DNA of 21,309 nucleotides. Origin: a virus. The notes beneath the pieces were generated by a model. That model saw only the letters and a list, made by a program, of their open reading frames with translations, searched no databases and was not told the DNA's origin. Every line of letters begins with the position of its first letter. Position 1 is the stretch's first letter. A program made the translations under genes and the position numbers. Location: positions 1 through 21,309 of the IMG/VR virus record IMGVR_UViG_3300004807_000153; one strand, written 5' to 3'. Shown one piece after another: positions 1 through 21,309 of the stretch.

Positions 1-590
1 GTTGTTTTTGTATTGGCTAGATAGGGTCTGTAAACTGCTAAATGCATTGGCCAATTGTGTATAGATATATACGTTGCCGTTGTTGGAGTCTGTGTTGGTT
101 GCATTGGGTGCGCCCACGTAAACCACGTTTCCGGTAGCATTTGTTTTGACCACTGAACCAAATGCTCCACCAGATCCAGCAATACCAGTAACTAGAGTAT
201 AGTTTACGTTTGCCACTGTATTGGCAGTCCAGTATGCATAAACATTGTTATCACCGGGCTCACCAACGTATAACCAATGTGCATCACCGCTTAGACTTAT
301 ACTAGTACCAAATTGATTACTGCCAGTTCCAGTTAATGTTTGCAATGGTGTGTATACGCCATTACTGTGTTGATAAATGTGTACGTTGCCGGCAGATGGA
401 GCACCAACAACTACAATGTTGTGTTGCGTATCTACGCTTGAACCAAAACCAGCCGCTGCATTGCTGATAGTTGCATTTGCTGAATACAAATAATCAACAT
501 TGGCAAATACCTGTACTGATCTGCTTCCGGGATTACCCACATATAAAAATTTTTCATCTCTACTGATTGCAGTTGCAGCACCAAATTGAG
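1..590 (-). repeat. Four tandem FG-GAP-like beta-propeller repeats within the giant structural protein
   Basis: Read on the minus strand, the Phe of each FG pair lies at 583-585, 445-447, 310-312 and 160-162. This gives repeat lengths of 46, 45 and 50 residues. Each unit has the pattern FGxxV/I, then YVG or VVG followed by xP, then a GNVYIY-like strand (VGNPGSRSVQVF, VGAPSAGNVHIY, VGEPGDNNVYAY, VGAPN...GNVYIY). This resembles the FG-GAP blades of integrin alpha chains, but the calcium-binding DxDxDG loop is not visible. The array continues past the left edge, so the blade count is unknown. FG-GAP propellers are known mainly from adhesion proteins; a receptor or glycan-binding role is inference. 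Confidence 0.7.
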
Positions 591-3500
591 TATTGGCTGT
601 TACAGTATTGGCTGAAACTTTTATCGCGGTGTTTGAATACCATGGAGCCTTATAGGTGTAAACTCCCCACCCCAACTCGGTTGCAGAATTGACCCATACA
701 CGATCATTTTCAATCCAATCATGTGGTGGACGTATGGTGTCAATTTCAGTGATTGTATCAATTACTGCTGATACCAATTTATAAATTATACCGGTGCCGA
801 TCAATTTTAAATTTGTACTAATTAGCAGAGCTGTTTGAGAAGCCGTCAATTGAATGGTAACTGTTAGATTGTTTGGTGCCGCAATTACTCGATATACTCC
901 ATCAAATGCCGAATTAAAATTTGATAGTATAAAGAAATCGTTTACAGATAATCCCGACGGATTGTTAAAAGTCAATTGAGCATATGAATCTAATGTGTAT
1001 TTTAAATCGGTTGCAGTTACCTTAGCCACTTCGGTTACTCTAAATACATTCCAGTGGTCTGATAAATCTTTTGCTACCCATACTTTATTACCCACATATG
1101 CTTTGGGCAGACTGGGATTTTGTGTGATATCAAAAATTTGATAATCTATATCATTTAAATTTACATAGCCTGGATATGGCAAGTCTGTAGCATACTCTTG
1201 CCCAGATCTATTGTAGTAGATATTGGTAACAGTGCTAGACAAGTTACTGGAATTGTACACATTTGCCAAACTTAGATCAATTATGGTATTTGCACTTGTG
1301 CTATACGAATTGGCAGTAAATGTGAGCGCAACTGGATTATTAAGAAATAAACTTTGATTTAATGTAAATTCAACAAAGGTATTATTTCTCACATCTCCGT
1401 AAGTGCCAACTCTAAATGCCCACTCTTCGTACGTGTTGACATTTCCAGTTACAACATCAAATGACGCCTTGGTCAATGCGTTTACTGCATTTACTGTGCC
1501 TTTTTGTTTTACGTACCCTTGATAAAATTTTGTCTGTGTGGCAACACCAATGCTTAAATTACTCAGGAACGGTCTTTCGCGGAATCCAATCAGGCCGGCA
1601 CTGAACAATTGAAAACTTTGATCAACTGGTGGATTATCTACGTCATAAAAATTAATAAACTGTTGTGCATTATGCCCAAAACTAGGCAAAAGACCAGTCT
1701 GTATATCAGTTTGAGCAATCTGTGTCCAATTGGTCAATGCAAAATTTTGACTTGCAGTGATATCTATTGGAGCGGTGTAATACAGATTGTTGTAAATTAC
1801 AATATCTCCTTGGCGATAATCAGTTCCTGGTTGCCATTGCTGTATATTGGGGTTACTGTACATGTACCCAGACATGCTGTAGCCTCCGTCCCAATATCCA
1901 GTTTTAGATCCTGACAGTTTTAATCGATATTGTCTTGTTCCTTGTTCGGGCACATAGATAATATCTCCAAAATTATCAACATTATCAAATATAAGAGTTG
2001 TTTCGTACTGTACTATTTCCAGTTGTGCAAATGCTATAGTTGATACACCATCAATCACAGACAATTGAAATCGATTTCCCGGAGGATTAAGTGGACTATC
2101 AACTCTTAAAATATCAAACGAGTTGCTTTTAATTGGTCGAAAATTAACATCAAGTATTCTGCTGCCAGTGGGCAAGTTGGTTACTTGATTTATAACCCCG
2201 CCAGGAACAGCCACATTGAGTTGATTGGCTATTGGATTTAGCATTATGATTGTGCCTGGTGCCCAGCCCTGTTGTGCCCAATATAAAAATTCTTTTACAC
2301 TTAGACTCCAGTCACGCACAGCCTGTAGATCTGTGTCAAATTCAGCAAATACAAATCCACGAGAAATCAAATATCTTTGATAACTTATTAAAAAGTCTGC
2401 AACTTGTTGTGCAGTAGCAAATGTGGTACCGTACGGTATTGTGGTAACTGTGCCGCTGCCGGTTTGATATAATTTCACAGATAAATTATTAACAGTCACA
2501 GTTGTTGAATTGGCATTGGCTATGCTGGCATATATGTTAAAAAATGGATTAGTGGTGTCGTACCCGGTTATGACATATCCAGTTGCCGAACGAGTTACAA
2601 TCACTCCGCTATAAACAATAATTGCTGCCGGTATAGGCGTTCCAATATAGGCACTATAATTTTCATTGGGAATGATAACGCTGGAGTTGGTGCTGCCTGG
2701 ACTGGTTTGTTCGGCAGTTACTGTAATCAAATTTTGATCAGTAAATCCAGCAACTCGGTACGCTAATTCAACTGAAAAATTACTGAAATAACTTTCAATT
2801 TTGGTAATAGGGTCTATTCCAAGATTTTTAATAGAATCTGCAATCCAGTTCAAGTAGCCTGCGGTTCGCAGAACAGTTCCCGGCTTGCTCACTGTGTCGC
2901 CATTTACTGTTAATAAATTGGGTGAAATTTTTTGATTGTCGGCTGTGCTAAATTGCCCAGTTACTGCATTGATATAAAATCTGCTTAGATCAATTTGAGT
3001 AGCAAAATATTCAGCCGGTCTTGCTAGAGACAACGCAAATTGAACTGCATATGGATAATCACTGCTGCGTCTCCAGGCCGACTCAACTGGCCCTTGCTCG
3101 CCAATTTGATAATTGTTGTTGACTGAAGCGACATTTACATTGAGAACTATTCCAATTTCAGTCGGCGGAATTAGATTACCTGCACTATCAACTGGAATAA
3201 AGTTAGATAGTCCCGGTCTTGCAAAATTTGCATCAGTATAAGGATCACCATTGTTCCACACATACCCGGCTTCAAGGTCTTGCCACAACACACCGTTACC
3301 ACTGGTATATGGTGCTGAACCATAACGTTGAGTCCACCAAGTGGGTTGTTCAGCAAAACCCAACATGTTCCATGGGCTCAAATGTGGTTGATCGGTGTCA
3401 AACCAATAGTTATAAATTGCACGCCACGATCCTTGTAACGGCGACCCATCAACAGTATCCACCATTTGATTGTAATTCCAGGTCCAAGGATTGTTTGCAT

Positions 3501-6500
3501 CGTACCAACTGTTGGTTGTGTAGTCTATATTATTATTACCAACCCATTGCAAAAAGTTCTGGCAGACCAACTTGTTCCATTCCAACAAACTGTAATTAGT
3601 CGTTCTAAATCTTCCAGGAACTGTGTTGTAAACATCTAAAATATTTCGAGAATTATAATCAACTTTGAGATTGTTATATATTCTTCGTTCAAGTTCTAAC
3701 AAGAACTGATCTCTAAAATCACCAAACGCCGGAGTTTTGCTTCCGTCGTGACCAAGAATAACAGTGGTGGGTTCTAGGTATGTGGCATCCACATAGATAG
3801 ATGGCGGATAGCTTTGTGCCAATCCCAATTTGGTTGGAGTTTCTGGAACATAATTTCCGTCGGTGTTTGCATAGTCACGTATCACAATGGTATCGCCAAC
3901 TGTTAATGCAATGTTTAAAATAACTGCCGGACTCAACGAATCATAACTGTAATCGACTCCGTTAGCCACCAACAACGTACCGTTATGATATACCATCACT
4001 GCACGATTACTCAATTCAGTTACATTAAAGATACTGGCTATTTCGTATTTGTTTTGTCTGGCATTCAATACAGTATAAGTGGTTGTGGTATAATTACTGC
4101 CTTGTGCAACCATATCACTGTAGTACCAGGGAAAACTGCTGTTCTTAACTGAATTGATTGATTTTAGTATGGAATCAACTCCACTGGCGGGATTTTTATA
4201 ATCCAGTCCGGTCAGTGTTGTACACAAAGTTAAAAATTTATTTTTAAATCTTTGATATTCTTTTCGTGCCAAATTGATACCGTTAACAAAATTCACAACA
4301 GGATCAATTAAAAAAGTCATGCCGTATATCAACGGACTGCTGTGTTGCAGTAGTGTTCCGCCTTGGGCTTTGATATATCTGTCTTGATATGGTATTGGCG
4401 AGTCAGATCCTAGAGCAGTATTTTCTATTAATTTATTATAGTGATTGCGTAATTGCCCTAAAGTGATAGAATCAAACGTTTGATTTAATGGATTGTAATC
4501 TAGATTCTCGGGAATTTCATAATATCCCAAGGCACTGATGCTTGAACTGAATATTAAAATATCAATCTTGTCACCAATGTTGGGAGTATTTGTTAACAAT
4601 AATACTTGATAAGACGTGTAAGAAGTTATTTGATAATCAGTATCGACTGTTAACAATTTGTTATTCAAATAGACTTTTGTATAAGGAATAGTTTTGCTAG
4701 TGGCCGGAGTTATGTCAATTTGAACAAATGCATAGTTAACTCCGTTGACAGGCAAAACATATCCATCATATATCTTTGTGATAATTTGATACTGCTGAGT
4801 TGGTTCTTTGCCTTTGATCCAGTTGTTTGTCAAGGTTGGCGTATTTAGATCTTTGTTGACTGCAAGATAACCAGTATTACAATTAGCAGTTTGAGTTGTG
4901 TAGTTTTCAACGTAACTAAATGTGTCAGTGTCGTAGTAGTTGTTGAAAACTATATCACCAATGTTGTTAAAATTTTGATAACTTAATGGAAATCCCAAAA
5001 CCAAATCATTGGCTCCAGTACCAACTGCGTACCCAAAAAATCTAGTACCGGCAAATGTGCTTGCAGGATAGGCCGAGGTATCGCCGAAACTGTATCCGTC
5101 AGCATCTACTAGATCAAATAACGGTGCTTGATTTAATTGGGTCTTTGCTTGACATTCGTGCCAATTTGCACCATCATAATACCAGGTTGTCCCGGCATTG
5201 GTGCCTTGTGTGACTAGAACATTTTGATTGGCCACAATTGGGTCATCAACAGTTTCTATCAATCTTAGATAATTTTGACTGTTGATTAATTCGTAATCAA
5301 CTTGCCAAATCTGTTGTTTTACATTGGGATCGTAGTCATTAGCAAATATCACTCGCATGCCTTGTTTTAACACAGTGCCATCAAGTGTGTATGTGATTTG
5401 GCCCTCAATGTTAACAAAAGCATCGGTGCTGTCAAATGTGATTAAATCAATGTTGTTTTTTGCCTGACGGCCAAAATTGAATAATTGTAAATTGGGCTCA
5501 AATTCAATAATTGCACGTCGTCCGGGAATATTTGGGCCGTAATTTAAAGTGGTACCGTTATATTTTGCAGTTGCGGTTAATACATCGATATGAAACCAGC
5601 AATTGCTTCTAGTCCAGGGATTTTGATCTTGGCTGGCACGATTGATTGTGATATAGTCGGCACTTGTTTGTAGAGTGCTGGTATATGGCTCAGGAATAGT
5701 CAATTGCAACACAGGAACCAACTGTATGCTGGTGCCAACTCCTTCTACATAATACTGATTGCTTGCATAAAAACTAGGAACTACCAAGGCATCAAATTCT
5801 ACTTTTAATCCGTTGGTAAACACCACACCATTGGGGCTGGTGTAATTGGTTTTTCCAATTATGTCGGTGGTGGCATTGATTGGTGTTGCAACATTATCAA
5901 CCAATTTTATTATTCCAAAAAAATCAGGATTTGTGCTGTCTTGATAATAAAGATAATCGCTTGGAGCAGTTATCAGAGGAACCACAGTGTATTGATAATT
6001 GTTGTTTAACCAAAATTGTTGGCTTGCATAAACCAGCCCGGATCCAATAAAAACTTTTTGTAATGGGGCGACTGATGTGGTTGGTTGTATTTGAATCACG
6101 TAATCGCCAGTACCAGTTGATACTAAATTAATTTGCCATACATTGGTTCTAGTGGCCCCGGTTATTACTTCGCCAGGCTGTATTTGTGTGTTATCTGGTA
6201 TGCTATATCCATTTGGCAAATTAGGTGTGGTCCAGTAACTGGCATCAATTTGATTACTGATAAAAACAAATGTTTTGCCTTGCAATTGCGTGGTAATTCC
6301 ATCAAATCCTGTGGGGAAATTAGTAAGGAAAGTGCTCAACAGTTGATTTTGTATATCGGTATATTTAAAAGTGGCCACCGAATTAACTGTTGCTTGAACC
6401 GGTAATGTTGTATAAAAATTTTGTGCGTTGCTTAACGGTACATTAAATGTAACTGTGCCGTCGTCTGCACCATTATTGACTACACCAAACACTGATCGAG

Positions 6501-7152
6501 TGCTGATCTCGGACACATTTATGTCGGCACCGGCCACACCAGGCTCGCTTTGAATCCAGAAACGAAATCCCGGTTGATCAACTTTGAATGTGTAGGTGCC
6601 GCCTCTTGCTAGAGTAATTTGGGGATTCGGTTGCCCGCCGTACTCGCTGATGGTGTATCCCTGCACTGCAGAATTTCTAGTCACAACATAATTGGATAGA
6701 TAAGGTGTGGCCGCCGATGTTATTACCACCGGGTCTGGGCCGCCTGGTATCCAATAATAATTGTTGTAGTTTACAAATTTATCGTAATCAAAATGTCCAT
6801 CGTAGTTGTAGTATGTCGACGAGAACAGGCGTTGTTGATTGTGATTTAGTCCGCCATTGTTTGCAATGCTTTGTAATAAGTCAATATAGGTGCTGTTTTC
6901 AATTACGTTGCCATTTACATCTTTGATGACCACACTGGGCTCAAGTTGGTAAACAGATCTTGCAGTCGAACTTTCTCCAATGTAGTTGTCACCAGATTTG
7001 TAAGTGGGGGCAAATGTTCTACCAATATAGCCATTAATTGAAACGTTGTATGCGTCGGTGGCCAATTGATCCATGGTAGCACCAAAAAATCGTTGATTTG
7101 TGGTACTTCTGAATACTTCTGGTAAAAAATTTAGTGTGTTATTTACAGCCAT
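1..7152 (-). CDS. Giant baseplate/tail structural protein with FG-GAP repeats (partial, C-terminus beyond window)
   Basis: The frame read backwards from the ATG at 7152-7150 appears open to the left edge (2384 codons, no stop found in the stretches translated). It therefore has a start but no end here. The N-terminus (MAVNNTLNFLPEVFRSTTNQ) and the nearby segments GYIGRTFAPTYKSGDNYIGE and DKFVNYNNYYWIPGGPD match, from memory, a family of very large virion structural proteins next to gp6 in marine T4-like phages. The middle is low in cysteine and rich in N, T, Y and beta-prone residues, as expected of tail fibre or baseplate proteins. From about residue 2185 it enters repeats resembling integrin-type FG-GAP blades (FG, then VGxP, then NVYxY). 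The start overlaps the gp6 stop by 1 nt (TAATG) and has AGGA 8 nt upstream inside gp6, so translation is probably coupled. It likely sits at the baseplate edge and may touch the host surface. Role inferred; family recognition good. Confidence 0.85.
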   Translation of the reverse strand, partial: MAVNNTLNFLPEVFRSTTNQRFFGATMDQLATDAYNVSINGYIGRTFAPTYKSGDNYIGESSTARSVYQLEPSVVIKDVNGNVIENSTYIDLLQSIANNGGLNHNQQRLFSSTYYNYDGHFDYDKFVNYNNYYWIPGGPDPVVITSAATPYLSNYVVTRNSAVQGYTISEYGGQPNPQITLARGGTYTFKVDQPGFRFWIQSEPGVAGADINVSEISTRSVFGVVNNGADDGTVTFNVPLSNAQNFYTTLPVQATVNSVATFKYTDIQNQLLSTFLTNFPTGFDGITTQLQGKTFVFISNQIDASYWTTPNLPNGYSIPDNTQIQPGEVITGATRTNVWQINLVSTGTGDYVIQIQPTTSVAPLQKVFIGSGLVYASQQFWLNNNYQYTVVPLITAPSDYLYYQDSTNPDFFGIIKLVDNVATPINATTDIIGKTNYTSPNGVVFTNGLKVEFDALVVPSFYASNQYYVEGVGTSIQLVPVLQLTIPEPYTSTLQTSADYITINRASQDQNPWTRSNCWFHIDVLTATAKYNGTTLNYGPNIPGRRAIIEFEPNLQLFNFGRQAKNNIDLITFDSTDAFVNIEGQITYTLDGTVLKQGMRVIFANDYDPNVKQQIWQVDYELINSQNYLRLIETVDDPIVANQNVLVTQGTNAGTTWYYDGANWHECQAKTQLNQAPLFDLVDADGYSFGDTSAYPASTFAGTRFFGYAVGTGANDLVLGFPLSYQNFNNIGDIVFNNYYDTDTFSYVENYTTQTANCNTGYLAVNKDLNTPTLTNNWIKGKEPTQQYQIITKIYDGYVLPVNGVNYAFVQIDITPATSKTIPYTKVYLNNKLLTVDTDYQITSYTSYQVLLLTNTPNIGDKIDILIFSSSISALGYYEIPENLDYNPLNQTFDSITLGQLRNHYNKLIENTALGSDSPIPYQDRYIKAQGGTLLQHSSPLIYGMTFLIDPVVNFVNGINLARKEYQRFKNKFLTLCTTLTGLDYKNPASGVDSILKSINSVKNSSFPWYYSDMVAQGSNYTTTTYTVLNARQNKYEIASIFNVTELSNRAVMVYHNGTLLVANGVDYSYDSLSPAVILNIALTVGDTIVIRDYANTDGNYVPETPTKLGLAQSYPPSIYVDATYLEPTTVILGHDGSKTPAFGDFRDQFLLELERRIYNNLKVDYNSRNILDVYNTVPGRFRTTNYSLLEWNKLVCQNFLQWVGNNNIDYTTNSWYDANNPWTWNYNQMVDTVDGSPLQGSWRAIYNYWFDTDQPHLSPWNMLGFAEQPTWWTQRYGSAPYTSGNGVLWQDLEAGYVWNNGDPYTDANFARPGLSNFIPVDSAGNLIPPTEIGIVLNVNVASVNNNYQIGEQGPVESAWRRSSDYPYAVQFALSLARPAEYFATQIDLSRFYINAVTGQFSTADNQKISPNLLTVNGDTVSKPGTVLRTAGYLNWIADSIKNLGIDPITKIESYFSNFSVELAYRVAGFTDQNLITVTAEQTSPGSTNSSVIIPNENYSAYIGTPIPAAIIVYSGVIVTRSATGYVITGYDTTNPFFNIYASIANANSTTVTVNNLSVKLYQTGSGTVTTIPYGTTFATAQQVADFLISYQRYLISRGFVFAEFDTDLQAVRDWSLSVKEFLYWAQQGWAPGTIIMLNPIANQLNVAVPGGVINQVTNLPTGSRILDVNFRPIKSNSFDILRVDSPLNPPGNRFQLSVIDGVSTIAFAQLEIVQYETTLIFDNVDNFGDIIYVPEQGTRQYRLKLSGSKTGYWDGGYSMSGYMYSNPNIQQWQPGTDYRQGDIVIYNNLYYTAPIDITASQNFALTNWTQIAQTDIQTGLLPSFGHNAQQFINFYDVDNPPVDQSFQLFSAGLIGFRERPFLSNLSIGVATQTKFYQGYVKQKGTVNAVNALTKASFDVVTGNVNTYEEWAFRVGTYGDVRNNTFVEFTLNQSLFLNNPVALTFTANSYSTSANTIIDLSLANVYNSSNLSSTVTNIYYNRSGQEYATDLPYPGYVNLNDIDYQIFDITQNPSLPKAYVGNKVWVAKDLSDHWNVFRVTEVAKVTATDLKYTLDSYAQLTFNNPSGLSVNDFFILSNFNSAFDGVYRVIAAPNNLTVTIQLTASQTALLISTNLKLIGTGIIYKLVSAVIDTITEIDTIRPPHDWIENDRVWVNSATELGWGVYTYKAPWYSNTAIKVSANTVTANTQFGAATAISRDEKFLYVGNPGSRSVQVFANVDYLYSANATISNAAAGFGSSVDTQHNIVVVGAPSAGNVHIYQHSNGVYTPLQTLTGTGSNQFGTSISLSGDAHWLYVGEPGDNNVYAYWTANTVANVNYTLVTGIAGSGGAFGSVVKTNATGNVVYVGAPNATNTDSNNGNVYIYTQLANAFSSLQTLSSQYKNN

Positions 7153-16376: not shown

Positions 16377-16388
16377 AGTATTTATTTA
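16377..16388 (-). promoter_or_regulatory. Putative late promoter of the baseplate operon
   Basis: TAAATAAATACT on the minus strand is identical to the motif before gp6 and close to the T4 late consensus TATAAATA. It ends 3 nt before the gp48 ATG, so by T4 spacing transcription would begin on or near the A of the ATG. It overlaps an AT-only inverted repeat (16381-16387 TTTATTT with 16391-16397 AAATAAA). Confidence 0.55.
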
Positions 16389-16430
16389 AAAAATAAACTG
16401 CGTATATAATGTTTTTGTCAAAAAAAAAGG

Positions 16431-16460
16431 TTGACAATCACACGATAAATATGTTAGCAT
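16431..16460 (+). promoter_or_regulatory. Putative sigma70-type promoter of gp55
   Basis: TTGACA at 16431-16436 is a perfect -35 box. TAGCAT at 16455-16460 is the best-placed -10 box (18-bp spacer, four of six consensus bases). Transcription would start near 16467, after the ATG codons at 16409 and 16451 but before the GTG at 16487. A second TATAAT at 16405-16410 has no obvious -35. Confidence 0.45.
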
Positions 16461-16473
16461 ACACTAACTTAAT

Positions 16474-16489
16474 AAAAGGACTAGAGGTG
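16474..16489 (+). promoter_or_regulatory. Ribosome site deciding the gp55 start (AAAAGGA, then GTG)
   Basis: AAAAGGA at 16474-16480 lies 6 nt before GTG 16487-16489. Neither in-frame upstream ATG (16409, 16451) has a well-placed Shine-Dalgarno, and the promoter boxes overlap them. The GTG start puts the protein three residues before NYLNNKD, which aligns with NYVNNKE near the T4 gp55 N-terminus. Confidence 0.5.
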
Positions 16490-17371
16490 CGTCACAACTA
16501 TTTAAACAACAAAGATATCTTAAAGGAAATACATAAAAGTAAAAATTCCTACTGCTATTATGAAACCAAAGATGTCGCCGATTACGACATGATCTTGCCC
16601 AGTTGGGACAAAATAAACAAAAAGAACATCAAGGAAGCAAGACAAAATCGTGCTGATCGACTGACCAAATTGGCACACGAATCAGCCACTGCTGATGGTA
16701 CCAAGCGCAAACTAGACGAATTTGAAGTAAAAATCAAGGACATCAAAGACACTGACGTGATTTTTCGAGTCATGACCTGGGATCATATTCCGGTAGACGA
16801 CATCAAAAGCCGTAAGGCCGCCGTCAAGGCACTAGAGGAAGAAGAAGGGGCAATACCGCGTAGCGAGTACGATGATGACGAACTCGATCTCAGCGGCAAT
16901 ACCAAATATGTCAAAGTCAACTTTCCACCGTTTGAGCACTACAAAGTCAACGAGGCTGGCGAACCGGTGTGTGTGGGTCGCAGTCACTGGAAAGGTGATT
17001 TGCTAACTGGATCGTTTAATCGCATGCATGGACAAATGACTCCCAAATTGGCACACATGTTTATCAAGTTGTGTGAACGCTATGCTACACGTAGCAACTG
17101 GCGCGGTTATACTTACAACGACGAAATGCGTAGTCAGGCACTACTACAATTATCACAGATAGGTCTACAGTTCGATGAATCCAAGAGTCAGAATCCATTC
17201 GCTTACTACACTGCTGCAATTACCAACAGTTTTACTCGAGTTCTCAATATCGAAAAACGCAATCAAAATTTACGAGATGACATAATGGAAATGAACGGAC
17301 TTACCCCAAGTTATACTCGTCAAGGCATGAGTGGCGGTTATTCTGGTGGTGATGGCGGCTACGATGAGTAG
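16487..17371 (+). CDS. gp55: Late-transcription sigma factor, gp55-like (long form)
   Basis: gp55 is the small sigma factor that directs host RNA polymerase to phage late promoters. With the GTG start the protein has 294 residues (320 if begun at ATG 16409, 306 at ATG 16451). Near the N-terminus N-Y-L-N-N-K-D-I-L (4-12) matches N-Y-V-N-N-K-E-L-L of T4 gp55. About residues 191-260 match its core: S-N-W-R-G-Y-T against F-N-F-S-G-Y-T, F-D-E-S-K-S-Q-N-P-F-A-Y against F-D-E-T-K-Y-K-N-P-H-A-Y, then N-S-F-T-R against N-A-F-V-Q. Between them lie roughly 150 residues absent from T4 gp55 (185 residues in all), charged and partly helical. The C-terminus is Gly/Tyr/Asp-rich and lacks the hydrophobic S-L-D-F-L-Y-type clamp-binding end of T4 gp55. 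It is the first plus-strand gene, facing away from the baseplate operon. Confidence 0.88.
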   Translation: MRHNYLNNKDILKEIHKSKNSYCYYETKDVADYDMILPSWDKINKKNIKEARQNRADRLTKLAHESATADGTKRKLDEFEVKIKDIKDTDVIFRVMTWDHIPVDDIKSRKAAVKALEEEEGAIPRSEYDDDELDLSGNTKYVKVNFPPFEHYKVNEAGEPVCVGRSHWKGDLLTGSFNRMHGQMTPKLAHMFIKLCERYATRSNWRGYTYNDEMRSQALLQLSQIGLQFDESKSQNPFAYYTAAITNSFTRVLNIEKRNQNLRDDIMEMNGLTPSYTRQGMSGGYSGGDGGYDE

Positions 17372-17377
17372 ATTACC

Positions 17378-17395
17378 AGTTGCTCTGTAGCAACT
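17378..17395 (+). terminator. Short hairpin after gp55
   Basis: AGTTGCT, CTGT, AGCAACT form a perfect 7-bp stem with a 4-nt loop, 6 nt after the gp55 stop, followed by the T-rich GTTTGTTGT. The stem is modest and the U-tract interrupted, so termination would be weak. It lies where the -35 region of the gp47 promoter would be. Confidence 0.45.
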
Positions 17396-17403
17396 GTTTG
17401 TTG

Positions 17404-17418
17404 TATACTACACATCTA
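17404..17418 (+). promoter_or_regulatory. -10 box directly before gp47
   Basis: TATACT at 17404-17409 ends 8 nt before the gp47 ATG at 17418, in the context TATACTACACATCTATG. There is no Shine-Dalgarno and only a weak -35 (TTGCTC at 17380-17385, 18-bp spacer). Transcription would start at or next to the ATG. The arrangement closely resembles that before gp46. Confidence 0.5.
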
Positions 17419-18434
17419 TGACAAATCTTTTTAAAAAGGCCGCTATATTTACGGATATACATTTCGGCCTAAAATCCAATAGTACTCAACACAACGAAGA
17501 CTGTTTGAACTTTGTTCGATGGGCCACTGCCAAGGCGCTAGAAGAAGGGTGCGAGACTGCACTCTTTCTCGGTGATTGGCACAACAATAGGGCCAGCATC
17601 AACATCTTAACCTTGGGCTATAGCCTGCGTGCACTGGAGCACCTAAATGATAATTTTTCTACTGTTTATTTTATTCCTGGCAACCATGATCTCTATTATC
17701 GGGATAAGCGTGATGTACAGAGTGTCGAATGGGCAAAGCATCTCCCGAACGTACAAATTTGTAATGATTGGTTTAGTAGTGGTGATGTGGTTATCGCTCC
17801 TTGGCTCTGTGGTGATGACCATAAACGCATTCCTCGGCTACGAGGAAAATACATGTTCGGGCACTTTGAACTGCCAGGATACTTGATGAATGCCATGGTG
17901 GCCATGCCCGAACATGGCGAATTAAATCGTGATGCTTTTAGACAATTTGATCACGTGTTCACCGGACACTTCCACAAGCGACAAACACAACGAAATATAA
18001 CCTATATCGGCAATTGCTTTCCGCACAACTACGCCGATGCCGGGGATGACGATCGCGGTCTTACCATACTAGAGTGGGGCAAGGAACCCGAGTATCATGC
18101 TTGGCCCAATCAACCCCTGTACCGAGTATTCAATTTGAGTGATGTTATCAATCACACCGAGTCTATGTTGCGACCCAATATGCATGTTAGGGTCAATATT
18201 GATGTAGATATCAGTTACGAAGAGGCCACATTAATTAAAGAGACTTTTGTGTCACAATACGGACTTAGAGAAATAACACTGATTCCGGCCAAGACCACAG
18301 ACTTGACCGATTACGAAATACAAGGCAATATCGAATTTGAAAGCGTAGATCAAATTGTATTTGGGCAGTTGAGCAATATCGAAAGCCAACAGTTCAATAA
18401 AAATCTTTTGTTGGACATATACCGTAATTTATGA
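17418..18434 (+). CDS. gp47: Recombination endonuclease subunit gp47 (Mre11/SbcD-like)
   Basis: This 338-residue metallophosphoesterase matches T4 gp47 (339 residues) in length. With gp46 it forms the Mre11-Rad50-type complex that resects DNA ends for recombination-dependent replication. The phosphoesterase motifs are complete: F-T-D-I-H-F-G (D13, H15), L-G-D-W-H-N-N-R (D53, H55), P-G-N-H-D (N89, H90), F-G-H-F-E (H149) and F-T-G-H-F-H-K-R (H184, H186). A C-terminal region after about residue 225 would bind gp46. The gene begins 46 nt after gp55, behind its own -10 box. Its stop overlaps the ATG of the radical SAM gene (ATGA), so gp46, its expected neighbour and partner, begins 2.4 kb further on. 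Base composition is close to that of gp46. Confidence 0.95.
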   Translation: MTNLFKKAAIFTDIHFGLKSNSTQHNEDCLNFVRWATAKALEEGCETALFLGDWHNNRASINILTLGYSLRALEHLNDNFSTVYFIPGNHDLYYRDKRDVQSVEWAKHLPNVQICNDWFSSGDVVIAPWLCGDDHKRIPRLRGKYMFGHFELPGYLMNAMVAMPEHGELNRDAFRQFDHVFTGHFHKRQTQRNITYIGNCFPHNYADAGDDDRGLTILEWGKEPEYHAWPNQPLYRVFNLSDVINHTESMLRPNMHVRVNIDVDISYEEATLIKETFVSQYGLREITLIPAKTTDLTDYEIQGNIEFESVDQIVFGQLSNIESQQFNKNLLLDIYRNL

Positions 18435-19732
18435 GTGGGAACAAAGTTTTTCCAATTAGATCAGACACCGCATGTTTATTGAAATGGTCCTGGAGCACTG
18501 TATTTTTCAATAGTGGTACTTCGGCGTCGTGTCATAGAACAAAAAAATATCCCATTGATCCCGATAACTTTGATCAATTTCACAATTTACCAGACAAGAT
18601 ACGCGATAGAAATGCCATGATTCGCGGCGAATGGCCAGGTAATGGTTGTGAATACTGTAGGAATACCGAAGCAGCAGGCGGACAAAGTGATCGACTGGTC
18701 CATTTGAGCCAAGAAAATCAAGCCTGGATCACTCCACCCGAACTAGCCAACCACCATACCGCAGTGGAAGTAACTCCGACTATACTAGAAGTGTATTTTA
18801 AAAACACCTGTAACATGGCCTGCGTTTACTGTGGAGCGCATTTTAGCAGTTTGTGGGCCGCCGAAAACAATCGGTTCAAAGAAACAATTACCATAAATCC
18901 CGATTCATTTAGTGTACAACACCACCAACACAATACCAATTATGATAAAATGGTGTCAGATTTTTGGCGGTACCTTGCTGCCAACGATCGATACAAAACA
19001 ATAAAACGATATCACATTTTAGGCGGGGAACCTTTTCTATTAGACGAATTAGATGACAGTATAGAATTTTGGAAAACGCACCCAAATCCTGATTTAATTT
19101 TTGAAGTAATAACAAATTTAAACATACCAACTGCAAGATTTCAATCTTATATTAAAAAAATAGAAAAACTGATATTTAATAATAAAATATGGAAATTACA
19201 ATTGACTGCCAGTCTCGACGGATGGGGCAATAGTCAAACCTATGTTCGTTATGGTCTTGATTTAGATTTATGGCAAGAGAATTTTGAGTTTTTATTGAAC
19301 AAGCCCTGGATAAGTTTATCTATTAATAGTGTTGTATCTGCAATCACTGTAAAATCATTACCAAGTCTAATAGAAAAAATAATCTATTGGAACAGCAAAC
19401 AACAACTATCGATCAACAATCGAGCGTCAGAGCCAATCATACAGCATTTTGGGGTTTCACGTCACAAAGATCACATTTACAATTTTGACGGACAGATTTT
19501 CAACGAAGATTTTAAAAAGATTCTAGAATTAATGCCCGAAGAAACAAAGGTGCAACGTGATCAAAAAAGCATCATGTCCGGCATAGCATTAAAGTCGTTG
19601 CAGTCAAAATCTAATACGGATCACATCAATGATCTAAAACAATATCTAGATCAAATTGATCGTCGACGGCGCACCAACTGGCGCGAACATTTTCCGTGGT
19701 TGGATCAAGATTTTAGTAGTTATGAAACTTGA
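18431..19732 (+). CDS. Radical SAM enzyme with extra cysteine set (twitch/SPASM-like)
   Basis: This 433-residue protein carries the radical SAM signature C-N-M-A-C-V-Y-C (C127, C131, C134), which holds the 4Fe-4S cluster that cleaves S-adenosylmethionine. G-G-E-P-F (198-202) would be the SAM-binding GGE motif. Unusually, the candidate auxiliary-cluster cysteines lie before the core, not after it: C15 (T-A-C-L-L-K-W), C34 (S-C-H-R), and C73/C76 (G-C-E-Y-C). I recall twitch-type radical SAM proteins in marine phage sequences with G-x-H/P-F-S-S-x-W after the CxxxCxxC, as in C-G-A-H-F-S-S-L-W here. The substrate is unknown. Members of this class modify peptides, sugars or cofactors. Its ATG overlaps the gp47 stop (ATGA), and the next gene overlaps its end by 11 nt. 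GC content is patchy, falling to 8 of 60 bases at 19141-19200. Confidence 0.85.
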   Translation: MSGNKVFPIRSDTACLLKWSWSTVFFNSGTSASCHRTKKYPIDPDNFDQFHNLPDKIRDRNAMIRGEWPGNGCEYCRNTEAAGGQSDRLVHLSQENQAWITPPELANHHTAVEVTPTILEVYFKNTCNMACVYCGAHFSSLWAAENNRFKETITINPDSFSVQHHQHNTNYDKMVSDFWRYLAANDRYKTIKRYHILGGEPFLLDELDDSIEFWKTHPNPDLIFEVITNLNIPTARFQSYIKKIEKLIFNNKIWKLQLTASLDGWGNSQTYVRYGLDLDLWQENFEFLLNKPWISLSINSVVSAITVKSLPSLIEKIIYWNSKQQLSINNRASEPIIQHFGVSRHKDHIYNFDGQIFNEDFKKILELMPEETKVQRDQKSIMSGIALKSLQSKSNTDHINDLKQYLDQIDRRRRTNWREHFPWLDQDFSSYET

Positions 19733-20144
19733 TATCGAATTAGATTACGAGCCAGCAGACATTGATATCGATATCATGTTGTCTCACTTTTATTGTAAAA
19801 CAATAAACTTATTATCAGACACAAAACAGATAACAATCGAGTTTGATCTAGACAATTTCGCTCCGCAACAGTTGGAATTGTCTTTTAGCACCACTGATAT
19901 TAAAATTGTAAAGTATCCAGTGACAGTTAGTAAAATTATCATGGATGATTTTTATTCTATAGACAAGGTGCTGTATTCTGGGCAATCTTGCATAAATGAC
20001 AGATACGCATTGTATTTAAAAATTAAAAATATCAATCTTGCACACGAACTACTAGATACCAATCGATTGGATTTTACTGGGAGTTTAAAATACACTTTGC
20101 AGTGGCCGTTTTATAAAAATGTCTACGATTACATGGGCAATTAG
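19722..20144 (+). CDS. Unknown 140-residue protein of the gp47-gp46 cassette
   Basis: I do not recognise this family. The start chosen is ATG 19722, 11 nt inside the radical SAM gene; an in-frame ORF extends further upstream but would overlap by more than 70 nt. The protein is acidic at its start (MKLDIELDYEPADIDIDIML). It then alternates hydrophobic and polar residues as in beta strands (I-T-I-E-F-D-L-D, L-E-L-S-F-S-T, I-K-I-V-K-Y-P-V-T-V), and ends Y-T-L-Q-W-P-F-Y-K-N-V-Y. There is no signal peptide, membrane helix or known catalytic motif, and only two cysteines (C25, C91). The likely shape is one small beta-sandwich domain. Tight packing between two enzymes suggests a partner, carrier or substrate-binding protein for one of them, but this is inference. 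The stop is one base before the next ATG. Confidence 0.7.
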   Translation: MKLDIELDYEPADIDIDIMLSHFYCKTINLLSDTKQITIEFDLDNFAPQQLELSFSTTDIKIVKYPVTVSKIIMDDFYSIDKVLYSGQSCINDRYALYLKIKNINLAHELLDTNRLDFTGSLKYTLQWPFYKNVYDYMGN

Positions 20145-20145
20145 C

Positions 20146-20847
20146 ATGAAACAAAAGCATATTATCAACATTGGTCACCCCAAATGTGGCACTACTTGGT
20201 TATGGAAACAACTGGACCGTCATCCTGCAGTCACCAGCGGAATACTAAAAGAAAACAACATGTTTTTAAACACCGTAGATATAGCACAATACAAAAATTA
20301 TTACAATCAGTACGACATAACCACAAACTTTCATATTACACAATGGGCCATGGATCAAGCCATGATACAACAACTGGGCACGTGTACCACTCACGCATCA
20401 GTTATTTTAAGAAACCCATATGATTTTATTGAACGATGGAAGGATTGGTTAGAAGTACACGATTCCATAAAGCCTTATAAAATATATAATACAAAATTTT
20501 CTGATTTAGAATTTGTTGATTGGTGTTTGACTTCTAACATTATACAATACGCAGAAATTGTTTCACGGTGGACTCGAAATCTTGTTAGTGCTAAATTCAA
20601 AGTATTTTTATATGAAGATTTAAAAAAAGATTCAGCACAGTTTTTGTCAAACTATTTTGATTTTTGCGGATTGGAAAATATAAAAATTCCCGACAGCGAA
20701 CAACCAGTCAATGTAAACCCAAACACTGTAAGAAAAAAATTATCATTTGATAAAAATCAAATATCAATTATAAACAACGAAATAAAAATGTTTGAAGAAT
20801 TAATTGAACGAGATTTGACTCATTGGCTAAATTTCCAAAGCCCGTGA
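20146..20847 (+). CDS. Sulfotransferase (PAPS-dependent family)
   Basis: This 233-residue protein starts at ATG 20146, one base after the previous stop. A start at 20119 would add nine residues but overlap that gene. The N-terminus (I-I-N-I-G-H-P-K-C-G-T-T-W-L, 6-19) is the 5'-phosphosulfate-binding loop that grips the PAPS donor; K13 and the T16-T17 pair are the key residues. S-V-I-L-R-N-P-Y-D-F (85-94) is the 3'-phosphate motif with R89, but the Ser usually eight residues after that Arg is not present (R97). F-K-V-F-L-Y-E-D-L-K-K-D (151-162) is the typical later motif. At 233 residues it is at the short end of the family. The acceptor is unknown: glycan, lipid, tyrosine or small molecule. 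It is the last cassette gene, followed after 34 nt by gp46, and has AT-rich stretches (12 of 60 G+C at 20461-20520). Confidence 0.85.
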   Translation: MKQKHIINIGHPKCGTTWLWKQLDRHPAVTSGILKENNMFLNTVDIAQYKNYYNQYDITTNFHITQWAMDQAMIQQLGTCTTHASVILRNPYDFIERWKDWLEVHDSIKPYKIYNTKFSDLEFVDWCLTSNIIQYAEIVSRWTRNLVSAKFKVFLYEDLKKDSAQFLSNYFDFCGLENIKIPDSEQPVNVNPNTVRKKLSFDKNQISIINNEIKMFEELIERDLTHWLNFQSP

Positions 20848-20882
20848 CTTATACTGTACACTGTGTTATAATACCAAATCTA
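20845..20882 (+). promoter_or_regulatory. Extended -10 promoter directly before gp46
   Basis: TATAAT at 20867-20872 is a perfect -10 box preceded by TGT (TGn extended -10). A partial -35 (TGACTT, 20845-20850, 16-bp spacer) is present. The box ends 9 nt before the gp46 ATG at 20882 and there is no Shine-Dalgarno, so the leader would be about 3 nt. The tail ATCTATG is shared with the gp47 promoter. Confidence 0.6.
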
Positions 20883-21309
20883 TGTTTAAAATAAAAGACC
20901 TTACTGTTCGAAATTTTATGAGTGTGGGCAATACCACACAAGCAGTCAACTTTGATCGAAACGATCTTACCTTGGTGCTGGGAGAAAATCTAGACCTAGG
21001 CGGTGATGATTCGGGTGCAAGAAATGGTACTGGCAAGACCACTATTATAAATGCGCTCAGTTACGGCTTGTACGGTAACGCTCTTACCAATATCAAGAAA
21101 GATAATTTAATCAACAAAACCAATACCAAGGGCATGCTGGTCACTGTTGATTTTGAAAGCAACGGTACTCGATACCGAATCGAGCGTGGGCGCAAACCCG
21201 GTATAATGAAATTCTGGGTTGGCGATACCGAACAAGAAATTACCGATGATGCGCAAGGCGATTCACGAGAAACACAGGCACATATTGAGCGTTTGTTAGG
21301 TATGAGCCA
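20882..21309 (+). CDS. gp46: Recombination endonuclease subunit gp46 (Rad50/SbcC-like), 5' part only
   Basis: The first 142 codons are present and the frame is open to the right edge. The N-terminus (M-F-K-I-K-D-L-T-V-R-N-F-M-S-V-G) matches the start of T4 gp46, where M-S-V-G is conserved. The Walker A loop is G-A-R-N-G-T-G-K-T-T (45-54). The preceding E-N-L-D-L-G-G-D-D-S loop is the longer form I recall from marine T4-like phages. Further T4-like blocks are Y-G-L-Y-G (61-65), N-L-I-N-K-T-N-T-K, Y-R-I-E-R-G-R-K-P and R-L-L-G-M-S. It is the ATPase partner of gp47 in DNA end resection. T4 gp46 is about 560 residues, so most of the protein, including the coiled coil and Walker B, lies outside. 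It has its own promoter, so it need not depend on cassette transcription. Confidence 0.95.
   Translation, partial: MFKIKDLTVRNFMSVGNTTQAVNFDRNDLTLVLGENLDLGGDDSGARNGTGKTTIINALSYGLYGNALTNIKKDNLINKTNTKGMLVTVDFESNGTRYRIERGRKPGIMKFWVGDTEQEITDDAQGDSRETQAHIERLLGMS

Follow-up and report, generated by a model that had tools for sequence, protein, structure and literature searches.

The gap between gp47 and gp46 in a 21,309-nucleotide stretch of DNA from a T4-related phage (the 21.3-kb IMG/VR virus record IMGVR_UViG_3300004807_000153, positions 1 to 21,309; hereafter the window) is filled by three genes, and this filling is the real, one-off content of an exchangeable cargo slot in a jumbo-phage lineage. 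The genes encode a radical S-adenosylmethionine (SAM) enzyme, a 140-residue protein and a sulfotransferase. They form two units: a radical SAM enzyme of the twitch type, and a sulfotransferase paired with the 140-residue protein, whose predicted fold resembles carbohydrate-binding modules (CBMs) of family 60. We see about an even chance that these two units tailor carbohydrates of the infected cell or of the virion. The slot and its cargo, rich in radical SAM enzymes, are real and partly known in kind; the CBM-like partner is new here. Radical SAM genes have been reported since 2010 in T4-related phages as unexplained exchangeable modules, without a substrate. A defined docking operon that occurs in filled and empty versions, together with a candidate sugar-binding partner, makes it testable which glycan might be involved and who benefits. 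The gp47-gp46 gap in this lineage is also a place to seek new phage enzymes.

Exchangeable slots in the gp55-gp47-gp46 operon

The insert is readily delimited by comparison with L023, the locus whose gp47 is the closest relative (92% identical in amino acid sequence). There gp47 and gp46 are joined directly (TAATG). In a blastn comparison, window positions 16377-18421 correspond to L023 4961-7004 (84.7%) and 20876-21309 to L023 7008-7444 (79.6%), whereas 18422-20875 have no counterpart, leaving an empty site. Because an independent contig, L022, carries the same junction between the sulfotransferase gene and gp46 (98.8% over 838 nt), the insert is not an assembly accident or a chimera. An earlier note on this DNA, made from its letters, had described the three genes between gp47 and gp46, an ATGA overlap with gp47 and tight packing, all of which we confirm. 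The ATGA joins the end of gp47 and the start of the radical SAM gene, the 140-residue open reading frame (ORF) begins within the 3' end of that gene (an 11-nt overlap), and the sulfotransferase ATG follows after 1 nt, with an alternative, longer in-frame start at 20119. A 34-nt gap then precedes the ATG of gp46, which runs off the window. The gene identities given in the note also hold: the two enzymes score above the cut-offs of their families, and gp47 and gp46 match the SbcD-like and SbcC-like PHROG groups.

To place this insert in context, we used 80 loci whose only selection criterion was gp47 similarity (72-92%), blind to cargo; the loci are fragments, some of them near-duplicates. A junction was called filled when it held an insert of more than 150 nt. 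Inserts were present between gp55 and gp47 (slot A) in 34 of 77 loci, between gp47 and gp46 (slot B) in 44 of 80, and between gp46 and a downstream anchor in 38 of 56. Control junctions in the adjacent baseplate operon were filled in 0/24, 0/40 and 1/58 (1/122 in total), and the divergent spacer between v331 and gp55 in 10 of 61. The contrast holds when loci are collapsed at about 95% gp47 identity (22/57 and 35/60 for slots A and B; 0/17, 0/31 and 1/44 for the controls). The earlier note had taken gp47 and gp46 to be usual neighbours; this is so in about half of the relatives but not in the rest, whose gap is filled, nor in T4 itself, which has 46.1 and 46.2 between them. It had also reasoned that unrelated genes in the same gap of related genomes would indicate a general insertion hotspot with no joint function, and such genes are what the relatives carry. 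Differing genes at one syntenic site, alongside empty versions of it, are the pattern of hypervariable cargo.

Cargo genes often start a few nucleotides inside the preceding gene and so are probably translated with the operon. Taken together, the comparisons show three slots, one upstream of gp47, one separating gp47 from gp46 and one downstream of gp46, that hold exchangeable enzyme genes, which would be read with the operon, usually by means of overlapping starts. The nearest annotated relatives of gp47 are those of the jumbo phages PA5oct, Phosso and RaK2 (45-49% identity); among the nearest uncultivated relatives, several are contigs of 330-357 kb. In Phosso a glycosyltransferase is annotated in the first gap; PA5oct and RaK2 carry no inserts.

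Radical SAM enzymes are the commonest cargo. Among 142 non-redundant cargo proteins, Pfam families were matched as follows: Radical_SAM 50, SPASM 23, DUF6071 15, AMP-binding 4, short-chain dehydrogenase 4, sulfotransferase 2 and few others; 44 of the 142 match the NCBIfam family N_Twi_rSAM. The DUF6071 proteins resemble SGNH/GDSL hydrolases by eye (GxSxxxGDE near the start and a late conserved His). A further cargo superfamily, C1/C3, comprises proteins of about 290 residues with a glycine-rich loop and no family assigned, and genes resembling dCMP deaminases are rare cargo. The short-chain dehydrogenase gene adjoins a radical SAM gene in 16 of 16 cases, in the slot after gp46 (e.g., L089:9785-11466 and L080:9471-11112), whereas SGNH-like and C1/C3 genes do so in 0 of 59; the slots therefore hold small modules, some of them fixed in composition. 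Adenylating enzymes of the AMP-binding family lie between gp47 and gp46 at L024:1305-2762, L041:7020-8450, L069:3113-4534 and L054:1296-2372.

The insert has no features of a homing endonuclease or a transposon. It holds no endonuclease, integrase or transposase gene, and the ends of the inserts resemble one another no more closely than shuffled sequences do (28 of 200 shuffles attain the mean score), which gives no sign of flanking direct repeats. Cargo resembling HNH and GIY-YIG proteins, as read by eye, occurs in three other loci only. The GC content is 0.32-0.34 in the 3' half of the radical SAM gene, the 140-residue gene and the sulfotransferase gene, compared to 0.42-0.43 in the backbone. 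The 5' half of the radical SAM gene is backbone-like, which raised the idea of a mosaic origin; this was set aside, as a similar trend is seen in the relatives L007, L075 and L012.

A resident radical SAM enzyme and a two-gene unit

The window's radical SAM enzyme is a twitch/SPASM-type enzyme, as judged from its sequence, with an auxiliary region on the N-terminal side. It matches N_Twi_rSAM (NF033640) over residues 11-425 of 433, as do all 19 sequences aligned with one another. A CxxxCxxC motif (C127, C131, C134) and an N-terminal region with four cysteines (C15, C34, C73, C76) are present, and all seven cysteines are invariant in the 19 sequences. The match to Pfam Radical_SAM (PF04055) has an E value of 1.2e-5 and 26 bits against a gathering cut-off of 29.5. 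SPASM (PF13186) finds no Pfam match in the window enzyme; in L034 and L050, SPASM precedes the radical SAM domain.

In relatives this enzyme is a self-sufficient resident. In L002-L007 and L075, members of its subfamily stand before gp46 with neither of the other two genes; further relatives have them in slot A or at other places. In L002, L005, L006 and L007, only 9 nt and no other gene separate the end of this gene from gp46. In a tree of the family, the window enzyme belongs to a supported clade of ten slot B enzymes, nested in a clade whose members are also in slot A and elsewhere, and the slot label requires 14 changes on the rSAM_N tree. Two of these loci have a 122-residue protein between gp47 and the twitch enzyme (L002:4742-5110 and L005:5634-6005); it has a weak PadR-like match and is related by profile to cargo of 182-192 residues in L051 and L062.

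The sulfotransferase is predicted, from its match to PF00685 and its motifs, to be of the type that uses 3'-phosphoadenosine-5'-phosphosulfate (PAPS) to transfer sulfate. The motifs, seen by eye, are a P-loop, GHPKCGTTWLWKQL (KCGTTW), and an RNP motif in LRNPYDF. Relatives of both this enzyme and the 140-residue protein occur together only in L039 and its duplicate assembly L110/L112, at 27-30% identity. There slot B holds the ORF, the sulfotransferase gene and then rSAM_C, a radical SAM type different from that of the window. Because a second lineage keeps the pair in this slot, the ORF and the sulfotransferase probably form a real two-gene unit. No sulfotransferase over the cut-off was found elsewhere in 13 large related records.

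The 140-residue protein belongs to a small beta-sandwich family found beside radical SAM genes, a membership that comes from profile comparison and is new here. Searching with a profile of the two ORFs connects them to L006:11311-11790 (E 5e-4), which clearly belongs to a broader family, D16. A direct HHalign comparison of the ORF pair with a D16 pair was not significant, and the link rests on this L006 bridge sequence. D16 genes adjoin a radical SAM gene in 8 of 10 cases compared to a background of 75 of 560 (13%; one-sided p 5e-6, a guide only since the loci are related). A radical SAM protein of 493-532 residues that appears by eye to be of the B12 type (L060:9092-11060, L013:10107-12121 and L083:5506-7520) is in most cases encoded directly beside the D16 gene.

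The 140-residue protein, modelled on a 14-sequence alignment, likely has a carbohydrate-binding-module-like fold. CBM60 and CBM36 are the top two hits of the model in both Foldseek and VIA-align (Z 9.0 and 8.8; the next, lipoxygenase domains, 6.2), and the alignment to the CBM60 structure 2xfd covers 104 of 109 residues with a root-mean-square deviation of 3.0. Pfam CBM60 weakly matches two of the 14 family members (best E 0.0068) and does not match the window protein. Sugar binding by this modelled protein is plausible only. Searches of solved-structure sequences with the radical SAM and 140-residue families gave chance matches only, and neither the three proteins nor the window DNA had close relatives in cultured phages.

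Possible carbohydrate tailoring and its alternatives

Carbohydrate is the most likely, though unproven, target of the cargo enzymes; we favor it because of the CBM60/CBM36-like fold and the sugar genes in related genomes, the same two points that speak for the glycan target proposed in the earlier note. Four related contigs of 330-357 kb (the records of L003, L025, L077 and L100, or G001, G003, G004 and G005) have 17-20 Radical_SAM matches each. L003 has the closest relative of the window enzyme and, elsewhere in the same genome, six rSAM_N-type genes arrayed together with SGNH-like genes and one for a carbamoyltransferase (PF16861, E 3e-48), at positions 3762-19383 of L121 (which is G001:C1:310000-329900). 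About 10 kb from this array, DegT, epimerase and ThyA-like genes are consecutive (G001:C1:333760-336678). Across 13 related records, Epimerase is found in 11, DegT aminotransferase in 10 and ThyA-like genes in 5. Among cultured phages, the radical SAM cluster of CP220 is beside nucleotide-diphospho-sugar transferase genes and an amidinotransferase gene, and in Pelagibacter phage Mosig MoaA-like genes accompany those for a UDP-4-amino-4-deoxy-L-arabinose aminotransferase and a carbamoyltransferase.

We postulate that the radical SAM enzyme carries out a radical reaction (for example dehydrogenation, epimerisation or deoxygenation) on a sugar, or on a substrate that bears one, that the CBM-like protein would hold the glycan, and that the sulfotransferase would add sulfate from host PAPS. 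This could alter the receptors or glycans that superinfecting phages or host defences encounter. It is possible that the radical SAM enzyme and the sulfotransferase share one pathway. Several points weigh against carbohydrate tailoring. The functions of all three proteins are read from sequence and predicted structure, and a substrate has been shown for none. The CBM60 match is one of fold, made with a model predicted from 14 divergent sequences, and the window protein itself has no sequence family match and lacks the longer loop of its relatives. Matches to the structure model of the radical SAM enzyme tie between enzymes acting on sugars (DesII, Z 13.0; BlsE, 12.6) and on peptides (anSME, 12.4; SkfB, 12.3). 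Lastly, none of the sampled loci had a recognizable glycosyltransferase in its slots, and the large records have few Glycos_transf_2 matches.

The earlier note envisaged a short pathway that installs or modifies a group and then sulfates it. Spelled out for all three genes, the radical SAM enzyme would prepare or create the group, the 140-residue protein would serve as carrier or presenter of the substrate, and the sulfotransferase would add the sulfate. The tight packing, with its overlap and 1-nt gap, is consistent with this, as are the radical SAM gene in the same slot of L039, the only other lineage with the pair, and the radical SAM genes that adjoin the wider family of the 140-residue protein. 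However, the L039 enzyme is from another family, radical SAM genes are the commonest cargo anyway, and the trio did not recur among the 80 loci or in scans directed at the radical SAM enzyme, the sulfotransferase and the ORF, although these collection scans used short exact peptide patterns that distant relatives of the ORF and the sulfotransferase can escape. We therefore reject a conserved three-gene cassette, as all close relatives of the radical SAM enzyme lack the other two genes, and we regard the joint pathway as unlikely. What stands of the note's modification cassette is that modification-type enzymes dominate the cargo and that the ORF and sulfotransferase pair recurs; inclusion of the radical SAM enzyme in a joint pathway has no comparative support. 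Modification of a peptide or protein also seems to us rather improbable; here the twitch/SPASM-type enzyme would act on a peptide, and the target of the sulfotransferase would be a side chain in a protein of the virion or the host. SPASM and twitch enzymes include many peptide maturases, some relatives of the window enzyme have weak NCBIfam similarity to such maturases, and the structural tie includes anSME and SkfB; on the other side, the tightly packed insert has neither a precursor-peptide gene nor room for one, and the fold of the 140-residue partner points to carbohydrate.

The cargo could instead modify phage DNA, as does the alpha-glucosyltransferase in the corresponding 55-47 gap of T4. 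The T4 order, 55 - a-gt - mobB - 47 - 46.2 - 46.1 - 46, likewise has additional genes in both gaps, including one for a modification enzyme, but its cargo is unrelated to that of the window, its modification is DNA glucosylation and a homing endonuclease (mobB) is nearby. The rare dCMP-deaminase-like cargo and the ThyA-like genes in related records would fit DNA modification; the SGNH-like, CBM-like and carbamoyltransferase genes fit it poorly, the window trio includes no DNA-binding or known DNA-hypermodification family, and we know of no sulfated DNA bases. We give DNA modification little credence. Viperin-like nucleotide chemistry against superinfecting phages is very improbable: viperin is first among the Foldseek hits and there is weak similarity to its family (E 2e-5), but this amounts to 23.8 bits where 180 are needed, the window enzyme has the extra N-terminal four-cysteine region, and VIA-align ranks other families higher. 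The similarity is there because the radical SAM core is shared.

Carbohydrate tailoring might also extend beyond the window. We suggest, with considerable doubt, that this jumbo-phage lineage, whose genomes encode as many as 20 radical SAM enzymes each, has a glycan-tailoring chemistry of its own, in which stand-alone CBM60-like proteins would be substrate-holding partners of the radical SAM enzymes, joined in the window by a sulfotransferase. If so, it would, to our knowledge, be the first case of a phage making a sulfated glycan and would give twitch-type radical SAM enzymes of phages their first function.

Related systems share some features and differ in others. The Campylobacter phages CP220 and CPt10 have clusters of radical SAM genes that were called an interchangeable module (excerpts of PMC2853527), with 11-12 such genes per genome, fewer than the 17-20 found here. 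Like the cargo described here, this cluster is exchangeable. It has amidinotransferase and sugar transferase genes beside it; unlike the cargo, it is not seen in the gp55-gp47-gp46 operon, has no sulfotransferase or CBM60-like partner annotated, and encodes distant radical SAM proteins (27%). The host recognition cluster of pelagimyophages is a variable island of T4-like phages, with lipopolysaccharide genes, whose versions are distinguished by radical SAM-related cassettes (excerpts of PMC7029224), but it lies between VrlC and gp14, beside tail fibres, whereas the window insert is in a recombination operon. A T4-like marine genome with 12 radical SAM genes has also been described (excerpts of PMC5332604). 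The excerpts of these three accounts state no substrate for the enzymes. The family name N_Twi_rSAM likewise gives no function; here its member is a resident of a phage operon. Finally, the calcium-dependent CBM60 and CBM36 modules (2xfd, 2xhh) share the beta-sandwich fold predicted for the 140-residue protein, which differs in being a stand-alone phage protein with 10-12% identity to them; calcium-dependent sugar binding by it is putative.

Other features of the window

Table 1. Features of the gp55-gp47-gp46 operon in the window
Feature	Position	Strand	Evidence
gp55-like late sigma factor, left border of slot A	16409..17371	+	PHROG 12791, E 1e-78
gp47 (SbcD/Mre11-like), border of slots A and B	17418..18434	+	PHROG 100, E 2e-59; relative L023 92% identical (amino acids)
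Whole insert, slot B cargo, missing from L023	18422..20875	+	blastn against L023
Radical SAM enzyme	18431..19732	+	NF033640, 204.9 bits (cut-off 170); model pLDDT (predicted local distance difference test) 87.9
140-residue small beta-sandwich protein, predicted CBM60/CBM36-like fold	19722..20144	+	D16 bridge, E 5e-4; model pLDDT 81.6; VIA Z 9.0 to vCBM60 2xfd
PAPS-type sulfotransferase (predicted)	20146..20847	+	PF00685, 31.1 bits (gathering cut-off 22); motifs by eye
Tentative promoter-like site (GTGACT-17-TATAAT, extended -10) at right end of insert, 9 nt before gp46	20844..20872	+	19 found compared to 15.4 expected in region, not above chance
gp46 (SbcC/Rad50-like), 5' part only, right border of slot B	20882..21309	+	PHROG 77, E 2e-37

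A promoter that restores gp46 expression downstream of cargo was considered and rejected: TATA-like sites precede gp46 in 14 of 43 filled and 9 of 36 empty loci, with no clear difference. Near matches to the late-promoter motif were too numerous in a scan to be used. A (G)TGTATAAT-like box, not shown to be above chance, lies about 9-10 nt upstream of the gp46 ATG in the window (20844-20872) and in L042, L043, L028 and L034, all with slot B filled, and a leaderless gp46 transcript could arise from it. A terminator-like hairpin (8 pairs followed by a T-rich stretch) lies at 17377-17396, between gp55 and gp47.

These plus-strand genes diverge from a minus-strand baseplate operon. On the minus strand at 1-7152, an open frame of about 2380 residues begins with an ATG at 7152 and runs off the left end of the window, and so the first third of the window is not empty but one giant gene, probably a tail gene.

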